NCBI GenBank assembly: GCA_002702705.1
Contig: PABH01000044.1
Coordinates: 1 to 64,000, forward strand
DNA: 64,000 nt
Reading direction: 5' to 3'
Source of the DNA: Anaerolineaceae bacterium
GTDB lineage: Bacteria > Chloroflexota > Anaerolineae > Anaerolineales > Anaerolineaceae
Shown here one piece after another: positions 1,137 through 55,482 of this stretch. A model generated the notes under the pieces. The model saw nothing but the letters and a program-made list of their open reading frames with translations, had not been told where the DNA came from and did no database searches. A program made the translations under genes and the position numbers. How positions within the stretch are numbered: position 1 is the first letter of the stretch; the number at the start of each line of letters is the position of its first letter.

Positions 1137-1150
1137 GGGTAATTATGCCT
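1137..1150. promoter_or_regulatory. Partial AGGCA-N4-TGCCT palindrome
   Basis: On the minus strand the site reads AGGCA-TAAT-TACCC: one perfect arm and one degraded arm of the palindrome that precedes operons A and B. It lies about 75 bp before the start of the DUF2085 remnant and overlaps the stop end of the kinase gene. It may be a decayed operator or a chance match. Confidence 0.3.
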
Positions 1151-2900: not shown

Positions 2901-2954
2901 CACACACCTTTTTTACCACCTGATGGAAAATTACGCCGCTTTCTTTAAAACCAT

Positions 2955-3623
2955 TTATTCAATATCATCAAAGAACGCTGAAATTAATCCTAAGGAAACA
3001 CCACGCATGACCGCTTCCGTACGGCTTTCAACGTTCATCTTTTGGAAGATATTTGCTAAATGATTTTGTACAGTGCGGTCGCTGATACTTAACTGAACCC
3101 CAATTGCCTTATTCGTAAATCCTTTTGCGGTCAGGGATAAAACTTGCAGTTCGCGCGGAGTGAGCGTTTCAGCCATCTCGTTTTCTGTTTTTCCAGCCAG
3201 ATTCGCCATTAATTTATGGGTGAGACTTGAATCCAAAACAGATTTTCCGTGATAAACATCCCGAACTGCCTGTACAATTTCAACCGGTTCAGCGTTTTTT
3301 AACACATATCCATTGGCACCAGCTTGTAAAACAGCTCGCACATAGGGTTCATCCTCATAGGCAGTCAAAATTAATACTCCCATTGATAATTGCTGTGAAC
3401 GAATCCACCGGGTTACTTCAATGCCGCTTTTTAATGGCATTTGGATATCCAAAACCACCACATCGGGTTTATGGGACTCGATCAATTCACATGCCTCTTG
3501 ACCATTGGATGCCTCAGCGATCACTTTAATATCAGGGCTTTGTTCTAAAAATTGTCGAATACCAGCCCGCACCACAATGTGATCATCTGCTAACAGGGTG
3601 GAAATTTCTGGTAAAGGGATCAT
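2955..3623 (-). CDS. NarL/LuxR-type response regulator, operon A
   Basis: Receiver domain plus LuxR-type helix-turn-helix. Acidic residues ADD open the receiver, the phospho-acceptor Asp lies in VVVLDIQMP (Asp59 from this start), and the C-terminal segment GFTNKAIGVQLSISDRTVQNHL is the DNA-binding helix pair. The ATG at 3623 is preferred over an upstream GTG at 3641, which only adds a short hydrophobic tail. The gene lies between the CuA-cytochrome gene and the kinase and is probably phosphorylated by that kinase. Close paralogues are at 44109 and 51912. It is one candidate to bind the palindrome upstream of operon A. Confidence 0.92.
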   Translation of the reverse strand: MIPLPEISTLLADDHIVVRAGIRQFLEQSPDIKVIAEASNGQEACELIESHKPDVVVLDIQMPLKSGIEVTRWIRSQQLSMGVLILTAYEDEPYVRAVLQAGANGYVLKNAEPVEIVQAVRDVYHGKSVLDSSLTHKLMANLAGKTENEMAETLTPRELQVLSLTAKGFTNKAIGVQLSISDRTVQNHLANIFQKMNVESRTEAVMRGVSLGLISAFFDDIE

Positions 3624-3688
3624 AAACCATATTATACCCACAGCCTGAACAGTTTAACAACTATAGTTAAATAGCCTTGTTAAATATC

Positions 3689-4696
3689 CTACCAAGCAAA
3701 AGTATAAATATAACTTACCAAGGCATTAATTTGTTCTTCCGTAAAAATTGGACCCCAATACGGCATACCGGTACCCATTCCTCCGCGAATTATCTTTCCA
3801 GAAAATAAAGCAGGGCTAGCCCCTAACACATGATTCGCGTCGGTAAAATCATGTGGACGGATCAATCCGCCCATACCCGATTCAGAATGGGGGTCATTCG
3901 TACTGTGCTCATCGGAATCGTGTTTTGGGAGATCACGGACCATTATCCCATCACCTTTCCCCGTTTCACCGTGGCAAGCCGCACAATTCTCAGCATAAAG
4001 CGTCTGTCCGGTTTCAATCATGGACGGAGAAGTGTTTTTCTGCCAAATCCAGGCGACCACATCCCAAACTTCCTGATCACTTAACTCGGATAAAGTTGGT
4101 TCTGCTCGTAATCGCATCCATATTTTTGCAGGACTATTCGAAAAATAGGTCTCCTGATCCAAAACGTAACTCGGTAGATCATCTGCAAATAATGATCCTG
4201 TTTGGGGAGAAACATCAGTAGCTGGAATAACTTCGGCTTCATGCTCTGTATCAATATCAATTCCTAACTGAAGGTAAGCTGGTGGCGGATTGGTTACTAA
4301 AGGTCCCTCACCACGCACATCAATCGTACCACGCATGCGCCAATGATTTACGCCGCACCAACGAGTGCAGTAGAATGTGTATGTTCCGGGTTTGTCAAAC
4401 AACAAAGTAGTCTCCACAAATTCACCCGGAAAAATATCAACTGCCGGATGATTTGTTTTTCCTATTGCAAAACCATGAACCACATCATCACTGGTTAATT
4501 TCAAGTGAATGGGCTGGTTTGTTTCAGCATTAATAGAAGTAACGCTCCATCCCCCATTTTCCGGCATGCGTGCATGAATTTGAATACTATCTGCATTTAG
4601 ATTCTGGTTTTTTAACCACCCAACAACAAAAATTAGAACTGCAATGAAAACAAATAAAACCACCAAGACCCGGGCAATACGTTCCTTTTTTACCAA
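3689..4696 (-). CDS. Membrane-anchored CuA-cytochrome c fusion protein, operon A
   Basis: 335 residues: one N-terminal membrane anchor (about 8-27), a cupredoxin domain with a full CuA ligand set (His74 in DVVHGF, Cys110, Cys114, His118, Met121 in CTRWCGVNHWRM), and a C-terminal class I cytochrome c domain with CAACH at 238-242 and a likely axial Met in GMGTGMPYWGP. This resembles the soluble half of a caa3-type oxidase subunit II, but it has one membrane helix instead of two, the usual Glu between the CuA cysteines is Arg, and no oxidase subunit I is adjacent. It probably accepts electrons from the neighbouring CuA or polyferredoxin proteins on the outer membrane face. The start is a TTG with AGGA upstream; the preceding gene ends 4 bp earlier. 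Confidence 0.88.
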   Translation of the reverse strand: MVKKERIARVLVVLFVFIAVLIFVVGWLKNQNLNADSIQIHARMPENGGWSVTSINAETNQPIHLKLTSDDVVHGFAIGKTNHPAVDIFPGEFVETTLLFDKPGTYTFYCTRWCGVNHWRMRGTIDVRGEGPLVTNPPPAYLQLGIDIDTEHEAEVIPATDVSPQTGSLFADDLPSYVLDQETYFSNSPAKIWMRLRAEPTLSELSDQEVWDVVAWIWQKNTSPSMIETGQTLYAENCAACHGETGKGDGIMVRDLPKHDSDEHSTNDPHSESGMGGLIRPHDFTDANHVLGASPALFSGKIIRGGMGTGMPYWGPIFTEEQINALVSYIYTFAW

Positions 4697-4700
4697 TTTT

Positions 4701-6026
4701 TTATCCTATCAATAACCATAACATACCTGCCGAAAACAAACACGAAAAAGTGATGATCGGAAAGGCTTGTTTTGATGTTTCACTTATTTGGTTTGCAACT
4801 CTGCTCGCCCAAAACAATCCCACACATAAAAGCAAGATTTGAATCCAAATACTGAATGGTGTCGATTGTCCTACTTGCGCTTTACCGGTAAAACCAATCA
4901 AATTCCAGCCCCAACCAAATGGATCCGAAATGACAGGTAAAACATACGAAAACTTTACAAAAGCAAATGAAACAGTAAAGGCGATCCATGCCATCAAGCC
5001 TAACGGTACCAATACCTGACCGTAATTCATAAGCGTTTTCCGAAAGGTGGTTTTTGCCGAACCTAGTTTGGTTGCTGCCCAAACAGCTGTAGAAAATAGA
5101 CTTGGCAGTACACCAAAAGAAACAAAAAGAAACAAGCCAGCAAAACCCAGCCAGGATAGGCTGCCGATTTCATAAGCTGCGGTTTTTAACTGTCCCCACG
5201 GACCTAAAAATACAGCCGAATCTACAAGAACACTTGCCAGCATCACCAATCCGAGGAAAACTTCATCAAGTGATTGTTTTGATTTTGGACCAAGATCACT
5301 ACCCCAAGGACGGAGATTAACTGCAATATTATCGGATGGACATACCCGCAAACATTCCATGCACAATCCGCAATCCGCACTCGATTTTAATGCTAGTGGA
5401 TACTGTCCCCATGGGCAGGCGGTATAACAGGTTTTTTCGCTATGTTCGGCACAAACCTGTTTTTCTTTTACACGCACCTCAACTGGACCAGCCTGAGCAT
5501 ATAAACCTGTAAAGCCGCCAATCGGGCATAAGTAATTACAAAAAGAACGCCGTTCAAAAACCAGACTAAGTACAAAAGCCAAGATGATGATAAATAACAA
5601 GATCAAGGCAGTTACCCGAGCAGAAGTCAGTGTGACTGCCCCAAATAATCCAATCAAAAGAAAACCACCTGCCTGGAGCCAATTACCGCGTAATTTTTTT
5701 GGCCATCGTTTGCCCAAACCAAAACCTTTTCCGGAAGGTGAAAATAAACCACCTTTTTGCATCCATTCTCCGGGCATTGGAATGGGGCAAATACTACACC
5801 AGGATCGTCCACCAAATGGAATAAAAAACAACTTAAGGGCACTCCACCAAGCAATCCAAACAAAAATTATGGCGAAATTATGGCTGCCGACCACGGAACC
5901 AAATAAACCAGCTAAAATGGTGAAGACAAATCCCGCCAATGTAACTGCTCGAAGTAAAAACTGAGGCCAGCGGCTGCGCAATAAAGCACTCGTTTTAGGA
6001 AAACGGGTTAGATCTACACGATTCAT
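4701..6026 (-). CDS. NapH/NosR-like membrane polyferredoxin, operon A
   Basis: 441 residues with several transmembrane helices. Three cysteine groups are visible: SWCSICP near residue 77, the CNYLCPIGG motif typical of the NapH/NosR/CcoG group, and a ferredoxin-like region with CxxCxxCxxxCP (CGLCMECLRVCP) plus additional Cys residues just before it (VCAEHSEKTCYTACPWG). Members of this group pass electrons across or along the membrane between quinol or flavin donors and periplasmic acceptors. The ATG at 6026 overlaps the upstream CuA gene's stop as ATGA, implying translational coupling. A longer upstream reading is excluded because it would run through that gene and is absent from the paralogue at 41738. 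Confidence 0.85.
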   Translation of the reverse strand: MNRVDLTRFPKTSALLRSRWPQFLLRAVTLAGFVFTILAGLFGSVVGSHNFAIIFVWIAWWSALKLFFIPFGGRSWCSICPIPMPGEWMQKGGLFSPSGKGFGLGKRWPKKLRGNWLQAGGFLLIGLFGAVTLTSARVTALILLFIIILAFVLSLVFERRSFCNYLCPIGGFTGLYAQAGPVEVRVKEKQVCAEHSEKTCYTACPWGQYPLALKSSADCGLCMECLRVCPSDNIAVNLRPWGSDLGPKSKQSLDEVFLGLVMLASVLVDSAVFLGPWGQLKTAAYEIGSLSWLGFAGLFLFVSFGVLPSLFSTAVWAATKLGSAKTTFRKTLMNYGQVLVPLGLMAWIAFTVSFAFVKFSYVLPVISDPFGWGWNLIGFTGKAQVGQSTPFSIWIQILLLCVGLFWASRVANQISETSKQAFPIITFSCLFSAGMLWLLIG

Positions 6027-6520
6027 GATACCGTGCTTTTTTGGATATGGGATGACTGACGAAAGGATAAAAAAGCAGCAAACACAGCTAGTACACCCAA
6101 AATAATGCCGCGAACCAAAACCCAATTCGGGCCAACTTGAAGTTTTCCAATCATAAATGGATGCATATTTCCACAAGCAATGGAACAGCGAAAACGGAAA
6201 ACACCTGTTTTATTGGCAATAAAAGTAGCCGTTTGTGACTGACCCGGATCAGCAATTAATTCAAAATCATAACCATCGATTGAAAGCCCGTGAACGACAT
6301 CTGTTGAAATCAACTCCAAGGTAATCCGGTCACCTTGGTTAACTTGTATTCTACCCGGTATAAATTGGAACATACTCGCCTCAACCTGAAAATGGCGGTC
6401 TGCTGCATCATTCTGGGATTGAGGTAGAGGAATAAAAATAATCAGTAGGGCTAAAAGCACGATGAGAGATATCCACCAATTTTTTTTCACGAGATTTTTT
6501 AAAACGCTGTCAGATTTCAT
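6023..6520 (-). CDS. Small CuA-domain membrane protein, operon A
   Basis: 165 residues with a membrane helix at each end (about 17-31 and 136-152) and a cupredoxin domain between them. All expected CuA ligands are present: His77 in DVVHGL, Cys112, Cys116, His120 and Met123 in CSIACGNMHPFM. It has no haem motif. The fold is that of cytochrome oxidase subunit II or the CuA domain of N2O reductase, but two membrane anchors at opposite ends is unusual. ATG at 6520 was chosen over an upstream TTG that would overlap the preceding gene. It probably relays electrons to or from the CuA-cytochrome c protein encoded two genes downstream. Confidence 0.86.
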   Translation of the reverse strand: MKSDSVLKNLVKKNWWISLIVLLALLIIFIPLPQSQNDAADRHFQVEASMFQFIPGRIQVNQGDRITLELISTDVVHGLSIDGYDFELIADPGQSQTATFIANKTGVFRFRCSIACGNMHPFMIGKLQVGPNWVLVRGIILGVLAVFAAFLSFRQSSHIQKSTVS

Positions 6521-6530
6521 TAAACGCAGT

Positions 6531-7013
6531 CTAATCAACAGGGATCATATTGGATGGACCATATTGGGAATAGGTCAAATCGATAAAGGTCCTGATTTCA
6601 GGAGATGATTTCCCCTCCCGAGTCATCTTCATCACATCTTGTGAAATATCAACACAAATCGAACAACCCAAGGCATGATCATCAAAGACAATTTCACCCG
6701 ATGGTTTGATATCCTGAACATAACAATCGTAATTAGAAGTATGTCCCATTGCATTACAGCCACAATAACATGGAACATTTTTTAAGGCATCTGGATTCGA
6801 GAGCGCGAATTGATATGATTCACGCACCGTAACCGGAGATTGTTGCATTTCAACCGGCAAATCAGAGAGGGGTGCCAAATTTAGTGAATCCTTTTCGATA
6901 GGATTAACATTTGCACAAGCACTCAATAAACCGGACAAGAGTACAAAAAGGCCGAAAAATAAGACATAGCTGCGAACACTAGAAATAATATTAAAAAATT
7001 TGTAGTTTTTCAT
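6531..7013 (-). CDS. PCYCGC-motif lipoprotein, operon A
   Basis: 160 residues: signal peptide ending in a lipobox (LLSAC, lipidated Cys33), then the PCYCGC motif at 81-86 and additional cysteines at 97, 117 and 120 (GCSIC). The family (PCYCGC-motif proteins) is known from sequence only; six conserved cysteines suggest a metal or thiol role on the outer face of the membrane. It sits between the presumed selenoprotein and the small CuA protein in both operons. ATG at 7013 is chosen because a GGTGA element precedes it; a GTG two codons earlier is possible. Calling it a copper carrier for CuA is inference. Confidence 0.85.
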   Translation of the reverse strand: MKNYKFFNIISSVRSYVLFFGLFVLLSGLLSACANVNPIEKDSLNLAPLSDLPVEMQQSPVTVRESYQFALSNPDALKNVPCYCGCNAMGHTSNYDCYVQDIKPSGEIVFDDHALGCSICVDISQDVMKMTREGKSSPEIRTFIDLTYSQYGPSNMIPVD

Positions 7014-7127
7014 AGTCACCTATTAATCAAAGTTACCGTTTTAAAAATTTAAAACTGGAATATGATCCATTTGGGATAGAAGAATGATCGAACTTTCGTT
7101 TTTGGCTTAGGGAAAATTTTTCAATCA

Positions 7128-7622
7128 CTACGGAACCCAGTTAGACAGCACAGTTAATGACAAATCTTGTTTGGAGGGATCGTTGTTGGGTAAGTGGAGA
7201 CGAAAATCATGTGGGCCTCCCATATTACCATGCATCATAAATTGCATTGTGACTGTAGTGGATTCACCTGGTTTGAGGGTCATCGAACCGATGACAGGAG
7301 TAGGCGGTCAACACCCCTCCTTAACTTCTACATACGGCTTTTGGGTGAATCGGAGCTCTTGATCACCCACATTACTGATTTTAAAAGAGGTTTGTACCGT
7401 TTTTCCAAGTTGAACATCACCAAGATCAACCAATTCTTCATCTACCTGTAAGCTGGGTGAACCTGAAACTTCAGGAGTATATTTTTCCGGTTTATTATTA
7501 AAGACGAGTAAGGAGGCAATCAGTAAAACGAGAATCCCACCTGCTATAAGGAATAAAGGGTTTTTGTTCTGTTTAGCCTGTGAGCGTTTTGAAATCACCT
7601 TGTTTTTTTTCTTTGTTGGCAT
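7128..7622 (-). CDS. DUF1573-like putative selenoprotein (in-frame UGA, codon 105), operon A
   Basis: The protein has a basic N-terminus, one membrane helix (about 18-36) and a DUF1573-like Ig-type domain. The frame meets TGA (7308-7310) straight after Gly-Cys, and continues without another stop for 59 codons to TAG at 7128. The continuation (PPTPVIGSMTLKPGEST, then a Met-rich MMHGNMGG segment, ending LSNWVP) is plainly the rest of the domain. The operon B paralogue has the same interruption and a matching continuation. A hairpin with a GGUUC loop lies 12 nt after the UGA. Read as selenocysteine, this gives a Cys-Sec pair next to a Met/His-rich copper-type segment. ATG at 7622 has GGAGGGG upstream. 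No sel genes are in the window, so insertion is inferred. A gene-ending UGA or a readthrough event are the alternatives. Confidence 0.75.
7279..7295 (-). promoter_or_regulatory. Candidate bacterial SECIS hairpin (operon A)
   Basis: On the minus strand GTCATC and GATGAC form a perfect six-pair stem closed by a GGTTC loop. The stem begins 12 nt after the in-frame TGA and the loop begins 18 nt after it. Bacterial SECIS elements are short stem-loops at about this distance with G in the first loop positions, recognised by SelB. The identical hairpin occurs in the paralogue although neighbouring third-codon positions differ. Confidence 0.7.
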
Positions 7623-7942
7623 CACTGCCCCTCCTACAATTGGATTAAATTTAAATAATTGTAAAGGGCAGAAAATATTTCCACAATAGGCATATTTGCC
7701 TGTTAAGCGTATCAAAAACAGCCTATTTAATCAGTTAAGAAACTTGTTTTGAGAATGCGAGGTGAGAAACAATAGTGAACTAAAAAAACAGTTTCTTAAA
7801 ATTTAATGAAGGTTTATTGTTTATTTATGGGGAATACGGCGTTTGTGGCAAGTACATGTAAGTGATTCTCCTTATTTCAGTAATCTTTTCCCGACCCTAT
7901 AATTAAAAAAGGGGAAATAATTGCAAATTGAAAAGGATTATC
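7623..7942. other. Divergent intergenic region
   Basis: About 320 bp separate operon A from the divergent cytochrome c lipoprotein gene. Besides the palindrome described separately I see only AT-rich sequence; promoters for both directions must lie here, but I cannot place them with confidence. Confidence 0.5.
7688..7701. promoter_or_regulatory. AGGCA-N4-TGCCT palindrome upstream of operon A
   Basis: Read toward operon A this is AGGCA-AATA-TGCCT, with core end about 65 bp before the first start codon. Arms are perfect, and flanking bases (AACAGGCA, TGCCTATTG) match the site in front of operon B. Likely binding site for a dimeric regulator; the protein is unknown. Confidence 0.6.
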
Positions 7943-38317: not shown

Positions 38318-38980
38318 ATGCAAAAACATTCATTTCTCTACAAACGCAAGTTAAATCCTTTACCTTATGTTTTATTTGCAGGATTATTCATCGGATTAAT
38401 TTCAAGCTGGTTCATATTTTCGAATCAAAATCCAGTGAAAGAATTAATCCTTTCAGAAACACCTATATCTTCACCAACCGCGACCCTCAATTCTCCAACC
38501 CGGTCAAAAATTGTTGAAACCACCACACCCCAAATAAGCGTGCCAGAAACTGCAGAAATTGGAAAACCGGCTCCTGATTTCATCTTAAAGACGATTAACG
38601 GAAAAGAAGTTAAACTATCCAATTTTGTAGGTAAAGCGGTTCTGATAAATATTTGGGCAAGCTGGTGTCCACCATGTCGATATGAAATGCCTGCGATTCA
38701 GAAGGCTTATGAGAAATACGAAAAAGACAAATTGATCGTTTTAGGAATAAACTTTACAGCACAGGATAATATTAAAGATGTTGAATCCTTTGTAAAAGAG
38801 TTTTCGCTTACCTTCCCTATTTTGCTCGATGAAACCGGTGAAGTTAGTTCAAAATTGTATGGAATGCGTGGATTACCTACCAGCTATTTCATAAACCAAG
38901 ACGGCATTCTTAAACGCATACAAGTAGGCGCCATGCAGCCGGAAGAGTTAGAAGATTACCTAGCTGAAATCATACAGTAA
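38318..38980 (+). CDS. TlpA/ResA-like membrane thioredoxin
   Basis: 220 residues: N-terminal membrane anchor (about 15-34), Ser/Thr/Pro linker, then a thioredoxin domain with WASWCPPCRYEMP and the cis-Pro loop GLPTSYFI. Such proteins reduce thiols of apocytochromes or copper proteins (CcmG, ResA, TlpA) outside the membrane. It is convergent with a CcdA-like gene 23 bp away, which could supply its electrons. GGAG lies upstream of the ATG. Confidence 0.9.
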   Translation: MQKHSFLYKRKLNPLPYVLFAGLFIGLISSWFIFSNQNPVKELILSETPISSPTATLNSPTRSKIVETTTPQISVPETAEIGKPAPDFILKTINGKEVKLSNFVGKAVLINIWASWCPPCRYEMPAIQKAYEKYEKDKLIVLGINFTAQDNIKDVESFVKEFSLTFPILLDETGEVSSKLYGMRGLPTSYFINQDGILKRIQVGAMQPEELEDYLAEIIQ

Positions 38981-39003: not shown

Positions 39004-39744
39004 TCAGGTTGTTTTTACAGCCTTTCCACTCAGATAACCCACATAAGCTGGGACAAGCGGCAAAACACAGGGAGAAAGAAAAGAAAGCAGCCCTGCCGCC
39101 ACGGCAATTATGTAAGTTGGTGTTGCTGTACTCCCAAGCGGTAAATCAATAAAATAACCATTCTGCAATGCCCATATTGCAATCACTGTCATACGATCAA
39201 AAACCATCATTAATCCGATGATAATCAACATTCCGCCGCTAACAATCTCAACCCAGCGCACATAATGCCGAAAACGTGAGATAAAACGCACCGCCTGCCC
39301 CATACCAAGACTTATCGCCAAAAAAGGTATACCTAATCCTAGCGCATATCCACTAGAAAGAATCATAGCCTGAAGAGATGTTTGCTGGCTCAAACCAAGG
39401 GTAAGAATAGCGCCTAACGTTGTTCCGATGCAAGGCGTCCAACCTGCGGCAAAAAACACTCCCATCATCACAGAAGATAATAATGTCCCTCCTTTTCCCG
39501 GGTTCCAATGGATTCTCATTTCATTATTTAACCAGGGGATTTTGATAATCTTTAATGTGAAGAGCCCTAATAATATTACGACAATCCCACCAATTCTGCC
39601 TAAAATTGATTTGTAATTTCCAAAAACTTGTCCAATAACAGTTGCTGCCCCGCCCCAGCCAACAATAAATACGATTGAAAAACCCAATACAAATAATATT
39701 GCATGTAAAAATGTATTGATACGGATATTGATATTTTTTTTCAT
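39004..39744 (-). CDS. ccdA: CcdA-like thiol transporter, circularly permuted
   Basis: 246 residues from an ATG with GGGAAAAG upstream. The protein begins with what is normally the second part of CcdA (FLHAILFVLGFSIVF), continues through the second active-site helix (FFAAGWTPCIGTTLGAIL) and the remaining helices, and ends with the segment that normally starts CcdA (AAGLLSFLSPCVLPLVP, then AYVGYLSG). Both redox cysteines are therefore kept, but the helix order is 2-6 then 1. Nothing like the missing first helix lies upstream of the start. It should still pass electrons from cytoplasmic thioredoxin to TlpA. Confidence 0.8.
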   Translation of the reverse strand: MKKNINIRINTFLHAILFVLGFSIVFIVGWGGAATVIGQVFGNYKSILGRIGGIVVILLGLFTLKIIKIPWLNNEMRIHWNPGKGGTLLSSVMMGVFFAAGWTPCIGTTLGAILTLGLSQQTSLQAMILSSGYALGLGIPFLAISLGMGQAVRFISRFRHYVRWVEIVSGGMLIIIGLMMVFDRMTVIAIWALQNGYFIDLPLGSTATPTYIIAVAAGLLSFLSPCVLPLVPAYVGYLSGKAVKTT

Positions 39745-40054
39745 GAGAACTTTTCCCGCGTCCTTGAATGCCAATTTTTTTCTTTCATTTTATAAAGTGA
39801 ATTGCCATTAATGAAATATAGTTTCCACCTGTGTTTCCTCCAAGTAGTGAAAACAAACGAGATGGCGTTCGAATAAATATGAATCTGTTCATATTAGTAA
39901 GCACAATTTGATTCAATTGATCATAACAGCGTCTTTTGTGATCATCCATGCGCCAAATTGCCGGCAATTTAACAGGCAAATATGCCTATTGCCCATCATT
40001 TCTATGCCTTTTACAATTTATACAGCTTCATAATATTAAAAAGGAGGGGCAGGA
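39745..40054. other. Divergent region between ccdA and operon B
   Basis: About 310 bp with no gene. It carries the palindrome described separately, and AAGGAGGGGC ribosome site for the first gene of operon B. Confidence 0.5.
39974..39987. promoter_or_regulatory. AGGCA-N4-TGCCT palindrome upstream of operon B
   Basis: AGGCA-AATA-TGCCT in the flank AACAGGCA..TGCCTATTG, the same as the site before operon A and at almost the same distance (68 bp) from the first start codon. Confidence 0.62.
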
Positions 40055-40552
40055 ATGCCAAGACCAAAGAAAATTCCATCAAAACTTAGAAATCAAAAAC
40101 CCCAATCAAAAAAAAATATCATGCCGATTTTTTTAATTATCGGTGGATTATTAGTACTGATTGCAGCTTTTTTCGCATTTCAAAAAAAACCGGTTCAATA
40201 TACTCCAGAAGTTGTTGGAAATCCCAGTTTACGCGTAGATAAAGAAAAAATAGATATGGGTAATGTAAGATTAGGGAATACCGTTCAAGCCTCTTTTGAG
40301 ATTACTAATGTTGGTGATAAACCACTGAAATTTTCTAAGGAACCTTATGTAGAAGTCAAACAAGGGTGTTGACCGCCCACCCCTGTCATCGGTTCGATGA
40401 CTCTCAAACCTGGCGAATCAACAACAGTGTCAATGCAATTTATGATGCACGGAAATATGGGCGGCTTTCATGACTTTAGAGTCCACCTTCCTAACAATGA
40501 CCCAGAAAATAAAGATATCACGCTCGTCGTTCTCTCAAACTGGGTACCATAA
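40055..40552 (+). CDS. DUF1573-like putative selenoprotein (in-frame UGA, codon 106), operon B
   Basis: 165 residues if UGA at 40370-40372 is read through. Layout: basic N-terminus, one membrane helix (about 27-45), Ig-like domain with ITNVGDKPLKFS, then Gly-Cys-UGA and a 59-codon continuation (PPTPVIGSMTLKPGEST, Met-rich MMHGNMGG, LSNWVP) ending in TAA. The continuation matches the operon A copy closely with mostly synonymous changes, so it is under protein-level selection. ATG has a strong ribosome site (AAGGAGGGGC). A Cys-Sec pair near Met/His residues suggests a thiol/copper redox step such as CuA loading, comparable in role to Sco; this is inference. The selenium machinery lies outside the window if present. 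Confidence 0.77.
40385..40401 (+). promoter_or_regulatory. Candidate bacterial SECIS hairpin (operon B)
   Basis: GTCATC-GGTTC-GATGAC, six pairs with a five-base loop whose first two bases are G. The stem starts 12 nt after the TGA. The sequence is identical to that in operon A across the stem and loop. Confidence 0.72.
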
Positions 40553-40646: not shown

Positions 40647-40660
40647 AGGCAATTATGCCT
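40647..40660. promoter_or_regulatory. AGGCA-N4-TGCCT palindrome before the PCYCGC gene, operon B
   Basis: AGGCA-ATTA-TGCCT with flanks ATA..ATT that extend the symmetry. It sits in the gap between the putative selenoprotein and the PCYCGC lipoprotein, 93 bp before the latter. Operon A has no equivalent, so operon B may have a second, internal promoter. Confidence 0.6.
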
Positions 40661-40752
40661 ATTGTTAACCATGTGCTTTAACTCTCATAAATTAGCTTAT
40701 TACACAATATACTTCAATATAAGAAAAGTCCTCTAACACAACAAAGGTGCAC

Positions 40753-41229
40753 ATGAAACATACTATTTTTTCTCGATTTACTTCTCACAGCCTCCAACTG
40801 GCCCTAATAATCATTCTTTTAGTTTCAGCCCTTCTCCTGACTGGCTGCGGCGCATCAACAACAAACAATGATCAAATTGAAATGGCATCTATGTCCAGTA
40901 TGCCTGCTGAAGTTCAAAATGCTCCCTCTATAGTGCGCGAAGCTTACCAATTTGCGGTAGCAAATCCGGAAGCACTAAAAAACGTACCTTGTTACTGTGG
41001 TTGCAATGCAGTAGGGCACACATCAAATTATTCTTGTTATGTAAAAGAAGTCAAAGAAACGGGTGAAATCATTTTTGATCAACATGCTCTCGGATGTTCG
41101 ATTTGTGTAGATATTGCACAAGATGTGATTAAGATGACAAAAGATGGAAAAACGCCATCCGAAATTCGGACAATCATTGATAGCACTTATGCTCAATTTG
41201 GGCCATCAAACATGCCTCCTGTTCAATAA
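40753..41229 (+). CDS. PCYCGC-motif lipoprotein, operon B
   Basis: 158 residues with lipobox (LLTGC) and the same six cysteines as its operon A paralogue: PCYCGC, SCYVK and GCSIC. Sequence around the motif (CNAVGHTSNYSCYV) is nearly the same in both copies, marking the functional core, while the signal peptide differs. ATG at 40753 follows AAAGGTG; a GTG two codons upstream mirrors the operon A arrangement. Confidence 0.86.
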   Translation: MKHTIFSRFTSHSLQLALIIILLVSALLLTGCGASTTNNDQIEMASMSSMPAEVQNAPSIVREAYQFAVANPEALKNVPCYCGCNAVGHTSNYSCYVKEVKETGEIIFDQHALGCSICVDIAQDVIKMTKDGKTPSEIRTIIDSTYAQFGPSNMPPVQ

Positions 41230-41235
41230 ACAATC

Positions 41236-41718
41236 ATGATGCGTCAATCGCCAAACATTTTAAAACAAAATAAATTGAAACAGTGGACAAGAATCACAAT
41301 ACTGCTTCTATTATGTCTGGTAATTCTTTTCGTGCCTTTTCCCATTCCTGATGCTCCTCCAACAGATAGACATATCCGTATTGAAGCCAGCATGTTTCAA
41401 TTCACACCGAGTGAAATAAAGATTAATAAAGGTGACCATGTAACGGTCGATCTTGTTTCAACTGATGTAGTGCACGGTTTTTCATTGGATGGTTACAACT
41501 TTGAACTAAAAGCTGATCCAGGACAAACAAGCAGCGGCTCATTTATCGCAAATCGAACAGGTGTTTTCCGTTTTCGATGTTCCGTTGCTTGTGGAAATCT
41601 TCATCCGTTCATGATCGGAAAGCTTCAAATTGGTCCAAACCTTTTATTATTCAGAGGAATTATCCTCGGATTTTTGGCAATCATCGTGGCTTTACTTTCT
41701 ATAAAAACAAAAAAATAA
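41236..41718 (+). CDS. Small CuA-domain membrane protein, operon B
   Basis: 160 residues with a membrane helix at each end (about 19-34 and 137-154). CuA ligands: His80 (DVVHGF), Cys115, Cys119, His123 and Met126 (CSVACGNLHPFM). Starts 6 bp after the PCYCGC gene. All ligands are retained in both paralogues, so both are probably functional. Confidence 0.87.
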   Translation: MMRQSPNILKQNKLKQWTRITILLLLCLVILFVPFPIPDAPPTDRHIRIEASMFQFTPSEIKINKGDHVTVDLVSTDVVHGFSLDGYNFELKADPGQTSSGSFIANRTGVFRFRCSVACGNLHPFMIGKLQIGPNLLLFRGIILGFLAIIVALLSIKTKK

Positions 41719-41737: not shown

Positions 41738-43063
41738 ATGACTCGTCTTGATTTAACACAATTTCCAATAATTCAAAAAATACTTTATAGTCGTTGGCCG
41801 CAGTTTCTTGTACGTGCAATTACATTAGCTGGTTTTATTTTCACCATCTTAGCCGGCATTTTGGGATCGATTGTAGGCAGCCACAATTTTGCCATCATTT
41901 TTGTTTGGATTGCCTGGTGGACCGCCTTAAAACTTTTTTTCATACCATTTGGCGGCCGGTCGTGGTGTTCGATCTGTCCAATTCCAATGCCTGGCGAGTG
42001 GCTGCAGAATGGCGGCATACTACAACCCTCTGGTAAAGGCATCGGGCTGCGAAAAAAATGGCCTAAAGTTCTTCGTGGAAACTGGCTGCAAGCAGGCGGA
42101 TTCTTAATGGTTGGATTGTTTGGCGCATTAACTTTGACATCTGCTCGAATAACCGCAATTATTTTATTGGCGATAATCGTTCTGGCTCTTTTGCTCAGTC
42201 TGATCTACGAACGCCGGTCTTTTTGTAATTACCTTTGCCCCATAGGTGGTTTTACAGGGTTATATGCTCAGGCAGGACCGGTGGAAGTTCGTGTTAAAAA
42301 TGCGAAAGTCTGTGCCGAACACGCTGAAAAAACCTGCTACAATGCATGCCCATGGGGTCAGTATCCTCTGGCGTTAAAATCAAGTGCAAACTGCGGATTG
42401 TGCATGGAATGTTTACGTGTATGCCCCACCGATAATATTGCAGTAAACATGCGTCCTTGGGGCAGTGATTTTGGTCCGAAAACTAAACATCGTCTGGATG
42501 AAGCGTTTCTTGGGTTGGTGATGTTGGCAAGCGTTCTAGTGGATTCCGCAGTTTTTCTCGGACCTTGGGGACAGCTCAAGACTGCGGCCTACGAAATAGG
42601 CAGTATTCCATGGTTTATCTTTGCCGGTATTTTTCTTTTTGGAGCTTTGGTCGTTCTACCTGGTTTTTATGCGGCATCGGTATGGGTCGCGAATCGAATG
42701 GGCAATATACAGAACTCTTTTCGTAAATCCCTGTCCCATTTTAGCCAGGTTCTCGTCCCGCTGGGATTAATCGCCTGGATTGCTTTTACAGTTTCTTTTG
42801 CATTTGTTAAATTCACCTACATATTACCAGTGATTTCCGATCCTTTTGGGTGGGGATGGAACCTGATTGGGAATTCCAACACTGCCTGGGTAGGAGAAAC
42901 GACCACTTTTAGTTTATTTTTTCAGGTAATTCTCCTGTCGCTTGGTTTGTTTTGGGCAAGTCGTGTAGCAAGGCAAATTAGCGATTCGACGAAACAGGCG
43001 CTACCTTTAATCGCATTTTGTGCTGTATTTAACCTCAGCCTCTTATGGCTATTGATTGGATAA
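41738..43063 (+). CDS. NapH/NosR-like membrane polyferredoxin, operon B
   Basis: 441 residues, the same length as the operon A copy. Cys77/Cys80 (SWCSICP), Cys163/Cys167 (CNYLCPIGG), Cys192, Cys200, Cys204 (TCYNACPWG), and ferredoxin cysteines 219, 222, 225 and 229 (CGLCMECLRVCP). The number of complete 4Fe-4S clusters is uncertain: one is clear, and another may form from the remaining cysteines. No FMN-binding domain like NosR is present. It could oxidise quinol and feed the CuA proteins, or run the other way. Confidence 0.86.
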   Translation: MTRLDLTQFPIIQKILYSRWPQFLVRAITLAGFIFTILAGILGSIVGSHNFAIIFVWIAWWTALKLFFIPFGGRSWCSICPIPMPGEWLQNGGILQPSGKGIGLRKKWPKVLRGNWLQAGGFLMVGLFGALTLTSARITAIILLAIIVLALLLSLIYERRSFCNYLCPIGGFTGLYAQAGPVEVRVKNAKVCAEHAEKTCYNACPWGQYPLALKSSANCGLCMECLRVCPTDNIAVNMRPWGSDFGPKTKHRLDEAFLGLVMLASVLVDSAVFLGPWGQLKTAAYEIGSIPWFIFAGIFLFGALVVLPGFYAASVWVANRMGNIQNSFRKSLSHFSQVLVPLGLIAWIAFTVSFAFVKFTYILPVISDPFGWGWNLIGNSNTAWVGETTTFSLFFQVILLSLGLFWASRVARQISDSTKQALPLIAFCAVFNLSLLWLLIG

Positions 43064-43070
43064 GAACGGT

Positions 43071-44102
43071 ATGAAAAAAGAATTATTAGCTCGTTTGATA
43101 ATAATATTGTTTATTTCGTTAGCCATTGCGATTCCAGTCATAGGTCGCCTTAAATTATCGGTTAACCATAACAATGTTGTTGAATTACATGCTCGAATGC
43201 CAGAAAATGGCGGATGGAGTTTGAGCACAATCGAAGTTAAAGCCGGAAAACCATTAAAACTGCACATCACAAGCGATGATGTTATGCATGGATTTTCAAT
43301 CGGCAAATCCGATCAACCAGCATTGGAAATTACCCCTGGAGAATTCGTAGACACCACCCTTATTTTTGATACGCCTGGAAGATATACTTTTTACTGTGAT
43401 CGTTGGTGTGGACCAAACCACTGGCGAATGCGTGGAACTATTGTGGTGACCGGTGACAACCAAACCAGTCAACCAGAGCCACAACCATTATTTCTCAAAT
43501 TAGGCATTGACATTGATTCACCCTCTGATGCCGAAACAATCCCTTCCAAGCCGGTTTCTGCCGAAAATGGAGCAAAGTTCCAACATTTGTTACCCGAATA
43601 CGCCCTGCAGCGTGATACTTACAACGCAACCAGTCCAGCAAAATTGTGGATGCGATTACGTAAAGAATCCACTTTAGCCAATCTACCAGACAGCGATTTA
43701 TGGGATATCATTGCATGGATCTGGCAGCAAAATACCACAAACGACCAAGTAATAAACGGGCAAGAAATTTTTGCTAAAAATTGTGCAGCTTGCCATGGAG
43801 AAACAGGAGAAGGAGATGGCGTAATGGTGCGCGGGTTACCTGTTTGGGATCCGGGAAACCATAATTCCGGTAATGTTATGCATGAAGCAACCGGTGAAGG
43901 ATTAGTCAGACCGCCTGATTTCACAGATCCTATCCATCTTTTAGGGGTCAGCCCGGCGTTACTTGAAGGTAAAATTATTCGCGGAGGTATGGGAACCGGG
44001 ATGCCTTATTGGGGACCAATTTTCACCAATCAACAAATTGACTCACTGATAAGTTATCTATATACTTTTGCATGGAACACCAGGGCAAAAAATTCAAATT
44101 AA
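43071..44102 (+). CDS. Membrane-anchored CuA-cytochrome c fusion protein, operon B
   Basis: 343 residues: N-terminal anchor (about 5-24), CuA domain (His73 in DVMHGF; Cys109, Cys113, His117, Met120 in CDRWCGPNHWRM) and a cytochrome c domain with CAACH and the GMGTGMPYWGP axial Met region. As in operon A the residue between the CuA cysteines is Arg. It begins 7 bp after the polyferredoxin gene; a TTG 15 bp upstream would overlap that gene. Confidence 0.88.
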   Translation: MKKELLARLIIILFISLAIAIPVIGRLKLSVNHNNVVELHARMPENGGWSLSTIEVKAGKPLKLHITSDDVMHGFSIGKSDQPALEITPGEFVDTTLIFDTPGRYTFYCDRWCGPNHWRMRGTIVVTGDNQTSQPEPQPLFLKLGIDIDSPSDAETIPSKPVSAENGAKFQHLLPEYALQRDTYNATSPAKLWMRLRKESTLANLPDSDLWDIIAWIWQQNTTNDQVINGQEIFAKNCAACHGETGEGDGVMVRGLPVWDPGNHNSGNVMHEATGEGLVRPPDFTDPIHLLGVSPALLEGKIIRGGMGTGMPYWGPIFTNQQIDSLISYLYTFAWNTRAKNSN

Positions 44103-44108
44103 TTAATC

Positions 44109-44819
44109 ATGGAATTGTATAATAATATTGCTATGAAACCACAACCACAACCACAACCACAACAAATTATCCATGTTTTACTTGCTGACGATCATATCAT
44201 CGTTCGTGCTGGCATTCGCCAGTTTTTGGAACAAACACAGGACATTCAAGTCATTGCTGAGGCATCAAATGGTCAAGAAGCATGTGAGCTTCTCGAACAA
44301 CTTAAACCGGATGTCGCCGTATTAGATATACAGATGCCTCTAATGAGCGGAATTGAAGTTACCCGGTGGATACGTGCCAATCGATTACCCATAGGAATAT
44401 TGGTATTAACCGCCTATGATGATGAGCCTTACGTCCAGGCCGTCCTTCAGGCCGGAGCTAATGGATATGTTCTTAAAACGGCTGAACCTCAAGAGATCAT
44501 TCAAGGGGTGAGAGATGTTTTTCAAGGTAAATCTGTTTTAGATGTAAGCCTCGCACAAAAATTAATTGCGAGATTAGCCGGTAATGAAGACACCATGACC
44601 GTTGAACCGCTCACAGATCGCGAACTACAAGTTCTCACATTAACTGCAAAAGGATTTACCAATAAATCTATCGGCGTACAGCTTGGCATAAGCGATCGAA
44701 CCGTACAGAATCATTTGGCAAATATATTTCAAAAAATGAATGCTGAAAGCCGCACTGAAGCAGTTATGCGTGCAGTTACACTCGGGTTGATTCCTGCAAA
44801 CATTGACGAAATATCTTGA
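44109..44819 (+). CDS. NarL/LuxR-type response regulator, operon B
   Basis: 236 residues: a short Pro-Gln run (KPQPQPQPQQ), receiver with ADDH and phospho-acceptor Asp in AVLDIQMP, and LuxR-type DNA-binding domain (GFTNKSIGVQLGISDRTVQNHL). Paralogue of the operon A regulator, with almost the same recognition helix, so both could bind the same sites. The internal ATG at 44133 is an alternative start; neither has a good ribosome site. Confidence 0.92.
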   Translation: MELYNNIAMKPQPQPQPQQIIHVLLADDHIIVRAGIRQFLEQTQDIQVIAEASNGQEACELLEQLKPDVAVLDIQMPLMSGIEVTRWIRANRLPIGILVLTAYDDEPYVQAVLQAGANGYVLKTAEPQEIIQGVRDVFQGKSVLDVSLAQKLIARLAGNEDTMTVEPLTDRELQVLTLTAKGFTNKSIGVQLGISDRTVQNHLANIFQKMNAESRTEAVMRAVTLGLIPANIDEIS

Positions 44820-44873
44820 AAACCCTACAAACAAGAGTAAAACTTGTTTTCAGACATCTGTGAAAGGTGCATT

Positions 44874-46607
44874 TTGTCTAAAAAAGAACCTGGGTATAAG
44901 AAAAAATTTAATTGGAGGGGATTTACCCTCCAATCATTTTTAATTACAATATTACCTTTGACAGTGTTGCTAATGGTTGTTGCTTTTGGCAGCCAGACAT
45001 TACATCACAAAGCTATGCGCAGTTTGGTGGGAGATAGAGATTTAAGAACTGTTCGCGCTGCTTCCAGTTCTTTGGAACGCGATATTTTTCATCTCATCGA
45101 TACGCTCACAATATTATCGCGTGACCTGAACGACAATTCAGATTTTTCTTCTCTGATACTCCACCCAGAAGAAATATCTTCAGTTTTTGATGGCGGAATT
45201 GCTTTATACACAGCCAACGGACAGTTGATTCATTCCACAACCAATCTGGTTAATTGGCAAACACTCCCTTCATTGATACCTGATACCTTCAAAACGTTGA
45301 TCCAAAACAATCACCAACCAATTTTTTCCGACTTGATTTCATTTGGAAGTTCCAAATCTTATATGATTATTGGTTTGTCCACAAATAAAGATGAAGTCTT
45401 ATTAGGTGCATTTTCTCCAAAACGGCTCATCACGAATTCAATCAGCGATCTGATCAGTTCAGGAGGAACAACCGTTTTTGTCATAAGTTCCACGAAAGAA
45501 AAAGGGCAATATGACGAACTTTTTCAATCAGGAATTAGTATCAATGAAAACAGCACGATACACCCTGGAATTAGCGATGCATTAAATGGGGAAAGCGGAA
45601 TAAATTATTATCAGAGTGGTGAGGGCGAACATGTCATAGCATTTGCCCCAATCTTACCAGTTGGATGGGGCTTAATTATTGAAGAAACATGGGAAGAAAT
45701 CGCTAATCCCTACTTAAATACAACTCAATCTGCGCCATTGGTTTTTGTTCCTGCATTCTTATTAGCTTTAATTGCTATATGGTTTGGAGTCAGCCGCATA
45801 GTTAAACCTTTACAAAAATTAGAAAAACAAGCAAACAGCTTAGCCGCGGGAAATTTTGAAGAAATTCGTCATTCGGTCGGTGGCATTGAAGAAATTCAAA
45901 ATCTCCAATCAGAATTGATTGAAATGGCTGAAAAGCTGAAAGGTGCTCAACAAAACTTGCGAAGTTATATTGGGGCAATCACAGCCGGTATAGAAAATGA
46001 ACGCCGCAGTCTTGCTCGTGATATGCATGATGATACGATTCAGGCATTAATTGCTCTCAACCAACAAATACAAATCATTTTGATGAAATCTCCTGAAAAA
46101 CAAAAAAATGAATTGAGCGAACTACAATCTTTAGTAAAACAAATTATGAGTAACCTTCGACGCATGATCCGCGGTTTGAGACCAATTTACCTGGAAGATC
46201 TAGGGCTGGTTGCCTCTTTAGAAATGTTAGTTCGTGAAATGGAACAAACATCAAATCTCTCAATCTTTTTCAATGCTATTGGTGTTGAAAATCGATTTAC
46301 CCCTCAAGTCGAGATGTCTCTGTATCGAATGGTCCAGGAATCGCTTAACAATGTAATTCACCACGCAGAAGCGAAGCATGCCTGGGTAGAAATAAAATTT
46401 ACCAATCAAAATTTTTCTGCCCAGATTCGTGATGACGGAAAAGGGTTCATGGTTCCAGATAATTCGGCAGAATTCCCTCAAAAAGGACATTTCGGTTTAT
46501 TAGGTTTAAAAGAACGGTCGGAACTGATTAATGCTGAATTAGAAATCAAATCCTTGTTAAACAAGGGTACAACCATTTCAATTCGATTTAAAAATTCGAG
46601 CAGTTAA
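44874..46607 (+). CDS. NarL-system sensor histidine kinase, operon B
   Basis: 577 residues. Two membrane helices enclose an outer sensor region, followed by HAMP, HisKA_3 (RDMHDDTIQAL phospho-acceptor His) and HATPase_c (DDGKGF, GLLGLKER). The start is TTG with GAAAGGTG upstream, as in the operon A copy; an earlier TTG at 44844 is possible. The sensor regions have diverged more than the kinase cores, so the two systems may answer to different signals. Confidence 0.9.
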   Translation: MSKKEPGYKKKFNWRGFTLQSFLITILPLTVLLMVVAFGSQTLHHKAMRSLVGDRDLRTVRAASSSLERDIFHLIDTLTILSRDLNDNSDFSSLILHPEEISSVFDGGIALYTANGQLIHSTTNLVNWQTLPSLIPDTFKTLIQNNHQPIFSDLISFGSSKSYMIIGLSTNKDEVLLGAFSPKRLITNSISDLISSGGTTVFVISSTKEKGQYDELFQSGISINENSTIHPGISDALNGESGINYYQSGEGEHVIAFAPILPVGWGLIIEETWEEIANPYLNTTQSAPLVFVPAFLLALIAIWFGVSRIVKPLQKLEKQANSLAAGNFEEIRHSVGGIEEIQNLQSELIEMAEKLKGAQQNLRSYIGAITAGIENERRSLARDMHDDTIQALIALNQQIQIILMKSPEKQKNELSELQSLVKQIMSNLRRMIRGLRPIYLEDLGLVASLEMLVREMEQTSNLSIFFNAIGVENRFTPQVEMSLYRMVQESLNNVIHHAEAKHAWVEIKFTNQNFSAQIRDDGKGFMVPDNSAEFPQKGHFGLLGLKERSELINAELEIKSLLNKGTTISIRFKNSSS

Positions 46608-52821: not shown

Positions 52822-55482
52822 ATGGTTAAAGATCCAATTTGTGGAATGGAGATAAATCCTGAAGAAGCCTTTGCTTCCAGAGAACACATGGGGCAAACGT
52901 TTTACTTTTGTTCAGAGAATTGTGTCACCACTTTCGATAACAATCCGCATCAATTTGCTCACCAACAAGAAAAAACCGTTGGTTCAGCATCAACCGGATA
53001 TAATCCAAATTCGCAGCTGCTCCAAATTGAACTGCCCGTCTTGAATTTATCAAAGGAAGGGCAATCTGGCAGAACAATAATTCAATCCGCCCTCAAGAAA
53101 GCGGCTGGAATTGAAAAAGTAATTGCTAATCCGGTTGAAGGTATGGTTGTGATCGACTATGACCCAAAGATAATCCAAGTTCTGGATATCGTTCATTTAA
53201 TCAAAAACACAGGATACCAGGTAGGCGGTGCTCAAAAACGGATTGGCATTGAAAATATTCGTTGTTCATCTTGTGTTGGATTTATTGAAAATGAATTAAT
53301 GTCCACACCAGGTGTTTTACATGCATCTGTTAATTTGGCAACACAGGAAGCAACGATAGATTACTTGCCAGAGCAAACAAATCAAGCCCAAATAAATAAA
53401 GCAATTGAAAATTGGGGATATAAAACTCATGCTGCAACCACTGAAGAACCTGTAGATAAACAGCAATTAGCCCATGAGAAAGAATATAAACGTTTAATGA
53501 GACGTTTTTGGTTTGCTGCATTCATATCCATTCCAGTATTGATCACGGCTTACCCAAAATTTCTTCCGATAATCCGGGACTGGTCGGCAGAAACACTTCG
53601 CTTAGCCTGGTTAGGAACCGCGGTTTTAACTTTACCTGTACTCATCTGGTCTGGCAGCGATTTTTTCACTGGTGCATGGTCTGCAATTAAACATCGAGCA
53701 GCAAACATGAATACTTTGATTACGCTAGGCACAGGTGCAGCCTGGTTATATTCAACATTTGCCATTCTTTTTCCGCAAGTATTTCCGGAAGGCACATCAG
53801 AACCATTTTTTGATGTAGTTGCAGTGGTAATCGCATTAGTAGTGCTTGGGCAAGCTTTGGAGCTTCGCGCAAAAGGGCGTACAAGTGAAGCGATCAAGAA
53901 ATTAATGGGGCTGCAGGCAAAAACAGCTCGTGTAATAAGAAATGACGTTGAAATCGACATTCCTGTGGAAGAAGTTCTGGTTGGTGATATTGTCCAGGTA
54001 CGCCCAGGTGAAAAAGTGCCAGTTGATGGTGTTATTTTAGAAGGCAGCTCAGCAGTGGATGAATCGATGCTGACAGGTGAAAGTCTTCCAGTTTCAAAGA
54101 AAGTGGGTGACGATGTAATTGGAGCTACACTTAACAAAACTGGGGCATTCAAATTTCGTACAACAAAGGTTGGAAAAGATACTGCTTTAGCCCAGATCGT
54201 CAAAATGGTTCAGGATGCGCAGAATAGCAAAGCACCCATTGCACGTTTAGCGGATACGATTTCAGGTTTTTTTGTACCGGTTGTGATGATTTTAGCTATC
54301 CTCACATTTGTGATATGGTTTGATTTCGGTCCTCAACCCCAACTTGTTTACGCGCTAGTCACCGCTGTTTCGGTTCTTATTATCGCTTGCCCATGTGCAT
54401 TAGGGTTAGCCACGCCAATGAGTCTGATGGTTGGAATCGGTAAAGGTGCTGAAAATGGCATTTTAATCCGCTCTGGTGAGGCCTTACAAACCGCTCAGGC
54501 AATCAAAACAGTGGTTTTAGATAAAACCGGCACCATTACAAAGGGTAAGCCAGAATTAACAGACATCGTCGTTGCAAAACAACAAAAAGACATGACCGAA
54601 GACGAATTATTAAAATTAGCCGCATCTGTAGAGACAATCAGTGAACACCCGCTAGCCGAAGCGATTGTTGTAGGAGCAAAAGAAAAAGGCTTAACATTAC
54701 TCAAACCTGAAGCTTTTGAAGCCATACCTGGACACGGGGTAGTAGCGACAATAGATAATCGCAACATTGCGCTGGGAAATCTAAAAATGATGAATCGCCA
54801 AAACATCGCGCTTGGGGATCTTCAAACTCAATCAGAAACATTAGCAAGTAATGGCAAAACACCAATGTTCATTGCGGTTGATGGTAATGCAGCCGGAATT
54901 ATTGCGGTAGCAGACACAGTAAAAGAAGATTCAAAAGAAGCCATCTCAGCTTTGCACAAGATGGGAATCGAGGTAGTTATGATCACCGGTGACAATCGCC
55001 GTACGGCTGAAGCAATTGCCAGACAGGTAGGGGTGGACCGGGTTCTCGCAGAAGTACTGCCGGAAGATAAAGCCCACAATATACACCTTCTTCAAGCAGA
55101 AGGCAAGAAAGTTGCCATGGTCGGCGATGGAATTAACGATGCCCCAGCACTCGCTCAAGCTGATGTCGGTCTTGCAATTGGCACTGGTACCGATGTTGCC
55201 ATTGAGGCTTCGGATATTACATTGATTAAGGGTAGTCTGAAAGGGGTTGTCACTGCTATCGAAGTAAGCCGTGCGACTATGCGCAATATCAGACAGAACC
55301 TTTTAGGTGCGTTTATTTATAACTCTTTAGGCGTCCCCATTGCTATGGGTTTATTATTCCCCTTCTTTGGGTTATTGTTAAGCCCGATGTTGGCAGGTGC
55401 TGCTATGGCATTTTCATCTGTTACAGTTGTAACGAACGCGAATCGGTTACGCGGCTTTCGTCCAAAGTTAAGCGCAAAATGA
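52822..55482 (+). CDS. copA: Copper P1B-ATPase with YHS and two HMA domains
   Basis: 886 residues. Order: YHS domain (1-45; KDPICGM, FCSENC), a heavy-metal-associated fold without CxxC (about 66-132), a second one with CSSC (about 138-205), then eight membrane helices and catalytic domains: [55 protein letters not shown]. It exports Cu(I). The degenerate first HMA domain probably has a regulatory or structural role. A cupredoxin gene follows, which could receive copper outside. Ribosome site AAAGAGG. Confidence 0.93.

Follow-up and report, generated by a model that had tools for sequence, protein, structure and literature searches.

Two paralogous genes in a 64,000-nucleotide stretch of an Anaerolineaceae genome (hereafter, the window) very likely belong to a selenoprotein family in which an in-frame UGA is a selenocysteine (Sec) codon and the hairpin behind it is the cognate SECIS element; we put the probability of this reading at about 0.95. 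It is shown by comparison among homologues, without a measurement of the protein or of selenium. The inference rests on the pattern of UGA and Cys among homologues, the retention of the stem together with UGA, a codon-reshuffling null, and covarying base pairs. The features expected of a bacterial selenoprotein, namely a conserved continuation beyond UGA, replacement by Cys, compliance with SECIS limits, and selA, selB, selC, and selD in the same genome, were all met. SelB and tRNA-Sec would thus insert Sec beside a Cys in a membrane-anchored Ig-like (DUF1573) protein. This form is common, 64 of the 396 class genomes having a UGA copy, and is missing from the catalogues examined.

Gene copy A lies at positions 40055–40552 of the plus strand and encodes 165 residues counting Sec106, as supported by the ORF reading and domain matches, and copy B lies at 7128–7622 of the minus strand and encodes 164 residues counting Sec105. 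The UGA codons occupy 40370–40372 (plus strand; Sec106, after Cys105) and 7308–7310 (minus strand), and in both copies GGG-TGT, encoding Gly-Cys, stands directly 5′ of the TGA. The frame then continues for 59 codons in each copy and ends in SNWVP, followed by TAA in copy A or TAG in copy B. Across the first 25 of these codons, the proportion of changed sites between the copies is 0.44 for synonymous and 0.02 for nonsynonymous sites. A preliminary description of the window had claimed two paralogues with an in-frame TGA after Gly-Cys, a 59-codon continuation with mainly synonymous change, and an identical hairpin, GTCATC-GGTTC-GATGAC, 12 nt after the TGA; all of these claims held, with exact coordinates confirmed. 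Its statement that the gene is present twice holds for the window, and a third copy (copy C; G000:C13:27480-27971), invisible from the window, lies elsewhere in the genome. When both strands of the window were scanned for a read-through TGA with a SECIS-like hairpin, using cut-offs of our own choice, five candidates emerged, copies A and B included. Standard ORF calling stops copy A at Sec106 and lists the gene as 40055–40372; consequently, a conserved Met/His loop is lost from the annotation. Searches of two collections gave no match that would point to a plasmid or phage origin.

The identity of codon 106 was followed through the 396 genomes of the class. Matches were found in 73 genomes, 64 of which carry a UGA copy, 5 a Cys copy only, and 4 weak or other matches only. 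The class matches were combined with 13 loci of named genomes, and removal of identical sites left 117 rows, in which the site reads TGA in 97, TGT in 4, TGC in 4, and GGC in 1; the remaining 11 were not scorable, being split, short, or weak matches, some of them repeated. The GGC row is a canonical CGC-type DUF1573 protein and is not among the 105 family sequences, which comprise all homologues with Sec or Cys at the codon, including the genome's own three copies. Within this family (97 UGA, 8 Cys), Cys is the sole replacement for UGA (8/8), and the Sec or Cys is always preceded by Cys and followed by Pro (105/105). These sequences are related, so the counts do not represent independent events. 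On a quick tree of 110 rows computed with the site masked, at least five changes between Sec and Cys are required. Three of the 105 sequences were left out of this tree, and four outgroup and four other-class sequences were added; it was built on few columns and leaves 43 of its 107 inner branches open, so a smaller number of switches is not excluded.

The preliminary description had named homologues ending at this codon as a finding that would refute it. They do not end there: conservation reaches the C-terminal end (Ser161 in 98/105, Trp163 in 99/105), and in 17 of 18 pairs picked by hand nonsynonymous change is lower than synonymous change, the exception being a near-identical pair. The Met that follows the hairpin is not conserved as a start, and many copies have Thr there. 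One UGA copy (L114; G213:C1:4125083-4125534) is split into two frames 3′ of the hairpin and may be broken. Beyond the class, other Chloroflexota classes contributed 12 further UGA copies, chosen by their Gly-Cys-Sec/Cys motif; one TGT row proved to be an unrelated frame and was not counted, and the count also leaves out L183 (Ser-Cys-Sec) and G509:C226. The search outside Chloroflexota was limited to a single contig scan for close relatives, which returned 13 loci; 12 of them bear titles of Chloroflexota type, and the remaining one is labelled Clostridiales. The protein of the Clostridiales-labelled contig (LAKY01000076.1) is almost identical to the Levilinea one, and the label is probably a binning error.

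The hairpin occupies 40385–40401 (plus strand) in copy A and 7279–7295 (minus strand) in copy B, with the same letters in both, a 6-bp stem, and the 5-nt loop GGTTC. It starts 12 nt after the TGA, and its loop starts 18 nt from the UGA. Bacterial SECIS elements are described as having a 3–9 nt loop, a 4–16 bp stem, a UGA-to-loop distance of 16–37 nt, and a minimum free energy of at most -7.5 kcal/mol, with a G in the first two loop positions and mostly a pair inside the loop (PMC13188914). The window hairpins satisfy these limits. Folding of the 38 nt directly 3′ of the TGA gives -8.4 kcal/mol (z -2.5) in copy A and -8.0 kcal/mol (z -2.9) in copy B, and the predicted minimum-energy fold adds one inner pair, giving 7 bp and the loop GTT. 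An Rfam search of the window found no known element over threshold; five weak matches do not overlap the hairpin.

Across the family, the stem accompanies UGA. All six pairs form in 93 of the 97 UGA copies, at +12 in 91 and at +15, through an insertion of three bases, in 2, and the other four copies miss only the outermost pair (5/6). By comparison, the eight Cys copies form only one to three of the six pairs, with no full stem (0/8). Loss of the hairpin with UGA kept, which the preliminary description had named as a further refutation, was thus not seen. The first two loop positions contain a G in 97/97 UGA copies. When codons were reshuffled with the protein preserved (2000 sets), full stems arose in a mean of 14.5 and a maximum of 27 of the 97 copies. 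At the 88 offsets tested other than +12 and +15, on average 0.3 of 97 copies carry such a stem, and no offset 5′ of the UGA exceeds 5/97. In an alignment of 39 hand-picked sequences (set A3), 99.1% of cells pair, both partners change in four of the six pairs, and the other two pairs are invariant. Double-sided changes total 38 cells, a value reached in 0 of 500 shuffles, and slid stems give 1–9. Two weaker covariation measures were unexceptional, the number of pairs with a double change being matched in 54 and the number of pair types in 77 of 500 shuffles. Another set (A1) contained 57 hand-picked sequences. Two other origins of the hairpin were considered and rejected: a by-product of protein conservation is ruled out by the codon-resampling null, and a by-product of relatedness by the slid-stem comparison. 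The 12 other-class UGA copies have 6/6 pairs in 10 and 5/6 in 2, with C-G, G-C, or A-U as the innermost pair. In L172, which is not in A3, four pairs differ from the window stem and all are still paired. With the folding energies and covariation in four of six pairs, the claim that the hairpin is a SECIS held.

The search for selA, selB, selC, and selD, proposed earlier as a test, found all four in the window's genome: SelA at 537 bits (cut-off 268), SelB at 377 bits (cut-off 242), SelD at 362 bits (cut-off 125), and tRNA-Sec, the selC product, at 72.4 bits (cut-off 47) with anticodon TCA. The SelD gene (G000:C22:186400-187335) has one in-frame TGA itself; SelD is therefore probably Sec-containing. 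Among the 64 UGA-bearing genomes of the class, tRNA-Sec was detected in 57, and SelB exceeds its cut-off in six of the other seven; the seventh, G128, has only a weak SelB C-terminal fragment. The 10 other-class UGA genomes have tRNA-Sec over cut-off in seven and SelB in one more, whereas G509 and G623 have neither over cut-off. One of the two markers was thus found in 71 of 74 UGA genomes, and the three exceptions (G128, G509, G623) are incomplete MAGs. The excess of tRNA-Sec is modest (57/64 UGA genomes versus 253/332 in the rest of the class, p = 0.02), and the association is weak because 310 of the 396 class genomes have tRNA-Sec; genomes with and without it were matched to family genomes by eye. 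Among the Cys-only genomes, G326, a single contig, has neither tRNA-Sec nor SelB. The other four (G222, G246, G252, G288) keep tRNA-Sec, with SelB over cut-off in G246 and G252 and not in G222 and G288; hence, the Cys copies are not simply the result of Sec loss.

Sec has been catalogued in a DUF1573 protein before. One such selenoprotein is listed with the motif UGC (PMC13188914 Table 1; PMC9312934), and OS_HP2 is described as pfam07610 with the motif UxC (PMC2398784); on our reading of these three sources, OS_HP2 is the listed entry. The earlier impression of an undescribed selenoprotein therefore held only in part: a DUF1573 selenoprotein is known, but its Sec stands at another position. 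The two forms share the DUF1573/Ig-like domain, and each has a single Sec close to the same loop. However, the Sec of OS_HP2 lies in UGC/UxC, whereas the window family has Cys-Sec-Pro without a CxC, together with a Met/Met/His loop; the window copies read GCUPP, with no Cys two residues after Sec. Their scores against the OS_HP2 model NF041425 (30.0 and 27.7 bits for copies A and B) do not meet the curated cut-off of 100, and a search of 301 genomes of the phylum with this model gave weak matches in 12 and none over the cut-off. The canonical DUF1573 proteins (PF07610, CGCT) share the fold and profile (hhalign probability 98.8 against eight Chloroflexota sequences), but carry a CxC motif and, in those eight sequences, lack a conserved M-x3-M-x3-H. 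In a pairwise match to a canonical protein (L125), Cys105 aligns with the first Cys of CGC and Sec106 with the Gly, whereas hhalign aligns Cys105 with the second Cys and leaves Sec106 within an insert; the two alignments disagree in detail, and neither sets Sec106 on the first Cys of CGC. A canonical CGCT-type protein is also encoded just right of the window (G000:C46:65800-66096); it scores 70 bits against the OS_HP2 model and has no UGA at its motif.

Adjacent Cys-Sec pairs also occur in SaoL, HgcA, SaoC, CopZ-like form 2, and KCU-star (PMC13188914 Table 1), but in other domains. Since the same domain with another Sec position is treated as a distinct subfamily (PMC13188914), the Cys-Sec DUF1573 form counts as a new subfamily. 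The form was not described in the literature searched (PMC12013277, PMC5330540, and PMC5029168 included) and is absent from the parts of Table 1 of PMC13188914 that were examined; that 2026 review cites three works that were not covered. Zhang and Gladyshev 2007, Haft and Gwadz 2023, and Haft and Tolstoy 2025 fell outside the literature search and might describe it. A new Sec position in the DUF1573 domain is accordingly well supported, although we cannot be certain that it is unpublished.

The protein is likely membrane-anchored and probably extracytoplasmic, as inferred from its sequence. Copy A begins with a Lys/Arg-rich N-terminus, and the AlphaFold2 model predicts a helix at residues 23–42 (40121–40180, plus strand), which we infer from sequence to be a transmembrane anchor. 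Residues 52–165 are modelled as an Ig-like beta-sandwich (mean pLDDT 90.3), with fold matches over 52–163. The best solved structural match is 2qsv (Z 13.6, rmsd 2.5, 105 residues, 22% identity), a Porphyromonas gingivalis protein of unknown function. Copies A and B pass the gathering cut-off of Pfam DUF1573 (PF07610; 38.5 and 31.9 bits, cut-off 26.1) and score higher against the HYDIN/VesB-like Ig profile (PF22544; 44.7 and 44.9 bits). Gly104, Cys105, Sec/Cys106, and Pro107 are present in 105/105 sequences. The segment M-H-x2-M-x3-H (40445–40471, plus strand) supplies Met131, His132, Met135, and His139, conserved in 104, 94, 104, and 104 of 105 sequences, respectively; the exception at Met131, Met135, and His139 is most likely the frame-broken L114, and position 132 is not His in 11/105. 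The Cys-Sec pair beside a Met/His-rich segment, as claimed previously, thus held as a sequence feature. From Ig topology in general, the Cys-Sec loop, which follows strand 98–103, and the Met-Met loop are expected at the same pole. The Met-Met loop lies between strands 122–129 and 137–147, with His139 located at the latter's start.

In the window, both copies head copper-related operons. Operon A continues on the plus strand with a PCYCGC protein, a putative lipoprotein (40747–41229; PF13798, 108 bits; NF041379, 73.8 bits, cut-off 90), a probably membrane-anchored CuA-type domain containing CSVACGNLHPFM (41236–41718; COX2, 36.4 bits), and profile matches to a NapH-like polyferredoxin-type membrane protein (41738–43063), a CuA-cytochrome c fusion (43056–44102), and a NarL-type response regulator with a histidine kinase (44109–46607). 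The PCYCGC partner carries the motifs CYCGC...GHTSNYSCY and ALGCSIC with Cys throughout; a Sec form of the PCYCGC family (OS_HP4) is listed in PMC13188914. Operon B (1149–7019, minus strand) encodes PCYCGC, CuA, NapH-like, CuA-cytochrome c, response regulator, and kinase proteins, as read from ORFs, and each of its genes is matched by a counterpart in operon C. Operons A, B, and C share the same gene order, with the selenoprotein gene first in each, and this three-copy operon connects selenium with copper electron-carrier genes. Directly upstream of copy A lie genes for a TlpA-like thioredoxin (WCPPC; 38318–38980, plus strand) and a CcdA/DsbD-type membrane protein (39004–39774, minus strand), and relatives of both are found approximately 4.5–6 kb upstream of copy C. 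A YHS-HMA-P-type ATPase of the copper/heavy-metal type, identified by domain match, is encoded at 52822–55482 (plus strand).

The operons are likely governed by a shared operator, an inference from sequence. The palindromic box AGGCAAATATGCCTATTG (equivalent to AGGCAWWTATGCCTATTG) stands upstream of copy A (39974–39991, plus strand), upstream of copy B (7684–7701, minus strand), and between the selenoprotein and PCYCGC genes of operon A (40647–40664, plus strand). Seven matches with at most three mismatches were found on both strands, including two overlapping pairs, versus 0.21 expected, and the box also occurs upstream of the homologue in L019.

A wider survey covered 56 loci, taken from 103 family loci after leaving out those shorter than 7 kb and L020, L021, and L022. 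At least one of six copper-set queries matched in 42/56 family loci versus 2/39 control loci; the controls were shorter (138 kb versus 569 kb in total) and were hand-picked among loci without the family rather than drawn at random. PCYCGC was found in 34 loci, CuA in 26, NapH-like in 27, CuA-cytochrome c in 28, and P-type ATPase in 13, and the copper set is missing from 14/56. The six Cys rows within these loci likewise have the copper set. CcdA and TlpA relatives lie near few loci (4 and 7 of 56, respectively). Clustering without queries, in which domains were determined on one representative per cluster, recovered PCYCGC in 28 loci (on the same strand for 29/29 genes), a cupredoxin/CuA cluster in 29, and a P-type ATPase cluster in 20.

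The function we favour is thiol-selenol maturation of copper/CuA proteins, a role inferred from the neighbourhood and from conserved ligand-type residues that remains untested and that we consider slightly more likely to be wrong than right. In Bradyrhizobium, TlpA reduces ScoI and COX II, and what donates the copper for CuA has yet to be settled (PMC6696091); it is this precedent, together with the neighbourhood data, that places the copper/CuA role ahead of general redox and then metal trapping. The vicinal Cys-Sec pair and Met131, Met135, and His139, whose loops should share one pole of the sandwich, would form a thiol-selenol Cu(I)/redox site. This site may hand copper to the CuA and PCYCGC proteins encoded downstream or reduce their cysteines, and a CcdA-TlpA-like relay, whose genes lie near two of the three operons, would re-reduce it. 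The hypothetical analogy is with Sco/TlpA-type CuA assembly (PMC6696091), which has an exposed thiol-type pair, an anchor, a TlpA-like reductant, and a nearby CuA target; Sco, however, has a thioredoxin-like fold with a Cys pair and an extra His, whereas the window protein would present Cys-Sec on an Ig-like fold. Copper loading into the CuA proteins, as suggested in the preliminary description, is compatible with the gene neighbourhood and with the conservation of Met/Met/His, without having been demonstrated. A bolder joint reading, against which we lean slightly, is that the family is an unlisted selenoprotein family using Cys-Sec, two Met, and one His as an extracytoplasmic Cu(I) site, and that it is a selenium-based copper metallochaperone or CuA-maturation factor, widespread in Chloroflexota, whose fold is Ig-like instead of thioredoxin-like.

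Several alternatives concern the codon and the family. Were the UGA a true stop, the product would have 105 residues and the remainder would be a remnant or a separate gene; gene calling that ends at the UGA and the broken frame of L114 speak for this, but it is all but excluded by conservation up to Ser161 and Trp163, the excess of synonymous change in 17/18 pairs, Cys at the codon in eight copies, and a post-hairpin Met that is no conserved start and is often Thr. Nearly as remote is decoding of UGA as another amino acid, with the hairpin acting as a read-through stimulator or other RNA element. Direct chemistry is absent and three UGA genomes lack detected Sec markers, which leaves this formally conceivable; against it, only Cys replaces UGA, beside an invariant Cys, the hairpin falls within SECIS limits and is lost in Cys copies, and 71/74 UGA genomes have Sec markers. 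That the family is simply part of the known OS_HP2/DUF1573 selenoproteins is very unlikely. The Pfam domain is the same and NF041425 matches weakly, but 30 bits fall far from the cut-off of 100, the motif is C-U-P-P rather than UGC/UxC, and neither alignment sets Sec106 on the first Cys of CGC, with the caveat that no OS_HP2 selenoprotein sequence was aligned.

Other alternatives accept the selenoprotein and differ on its role. It remains possible that the protein is a thiol-selenol redox enzyme, such as a disulfide or peroxide reductase, with copper as such not involved. A redox role is assumed for most selenoproteins (PMC13188914), and CcdA/TlpA-type genes lie near copies A and C; however, CuA, PCYCGC, and P-type ATPase genes co-occur with the family, which weighs against it, and simple thiol chemistry needs no conserved Met. 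A role in sequestering toxic soft metals (excess Cu(I), Hg, or As) instead of supplying CuA is unlikely. CU-motif selenoproteins do include SaoL, HgcA, SaoC, and a CopZ-like protein (PMC13188914), and P-type ATPase genes are common neighbours (20/56 loci), but genes for CuA-cytochrome c proteins are no less frequent (28/56 loci), and the regulators inside the window operons are of the two-component type.

Natural Sec and Cys versions of the protein occur side by side in two genomes, G129 and G247, each of which carries both forms and which together offer a clean experimental system. At one G129 locus (L040; G129:C380:18076-19075), the UGA form and the Cys form, with TGT at the codon, stand in tandem as a natural Sec/Cys pair.
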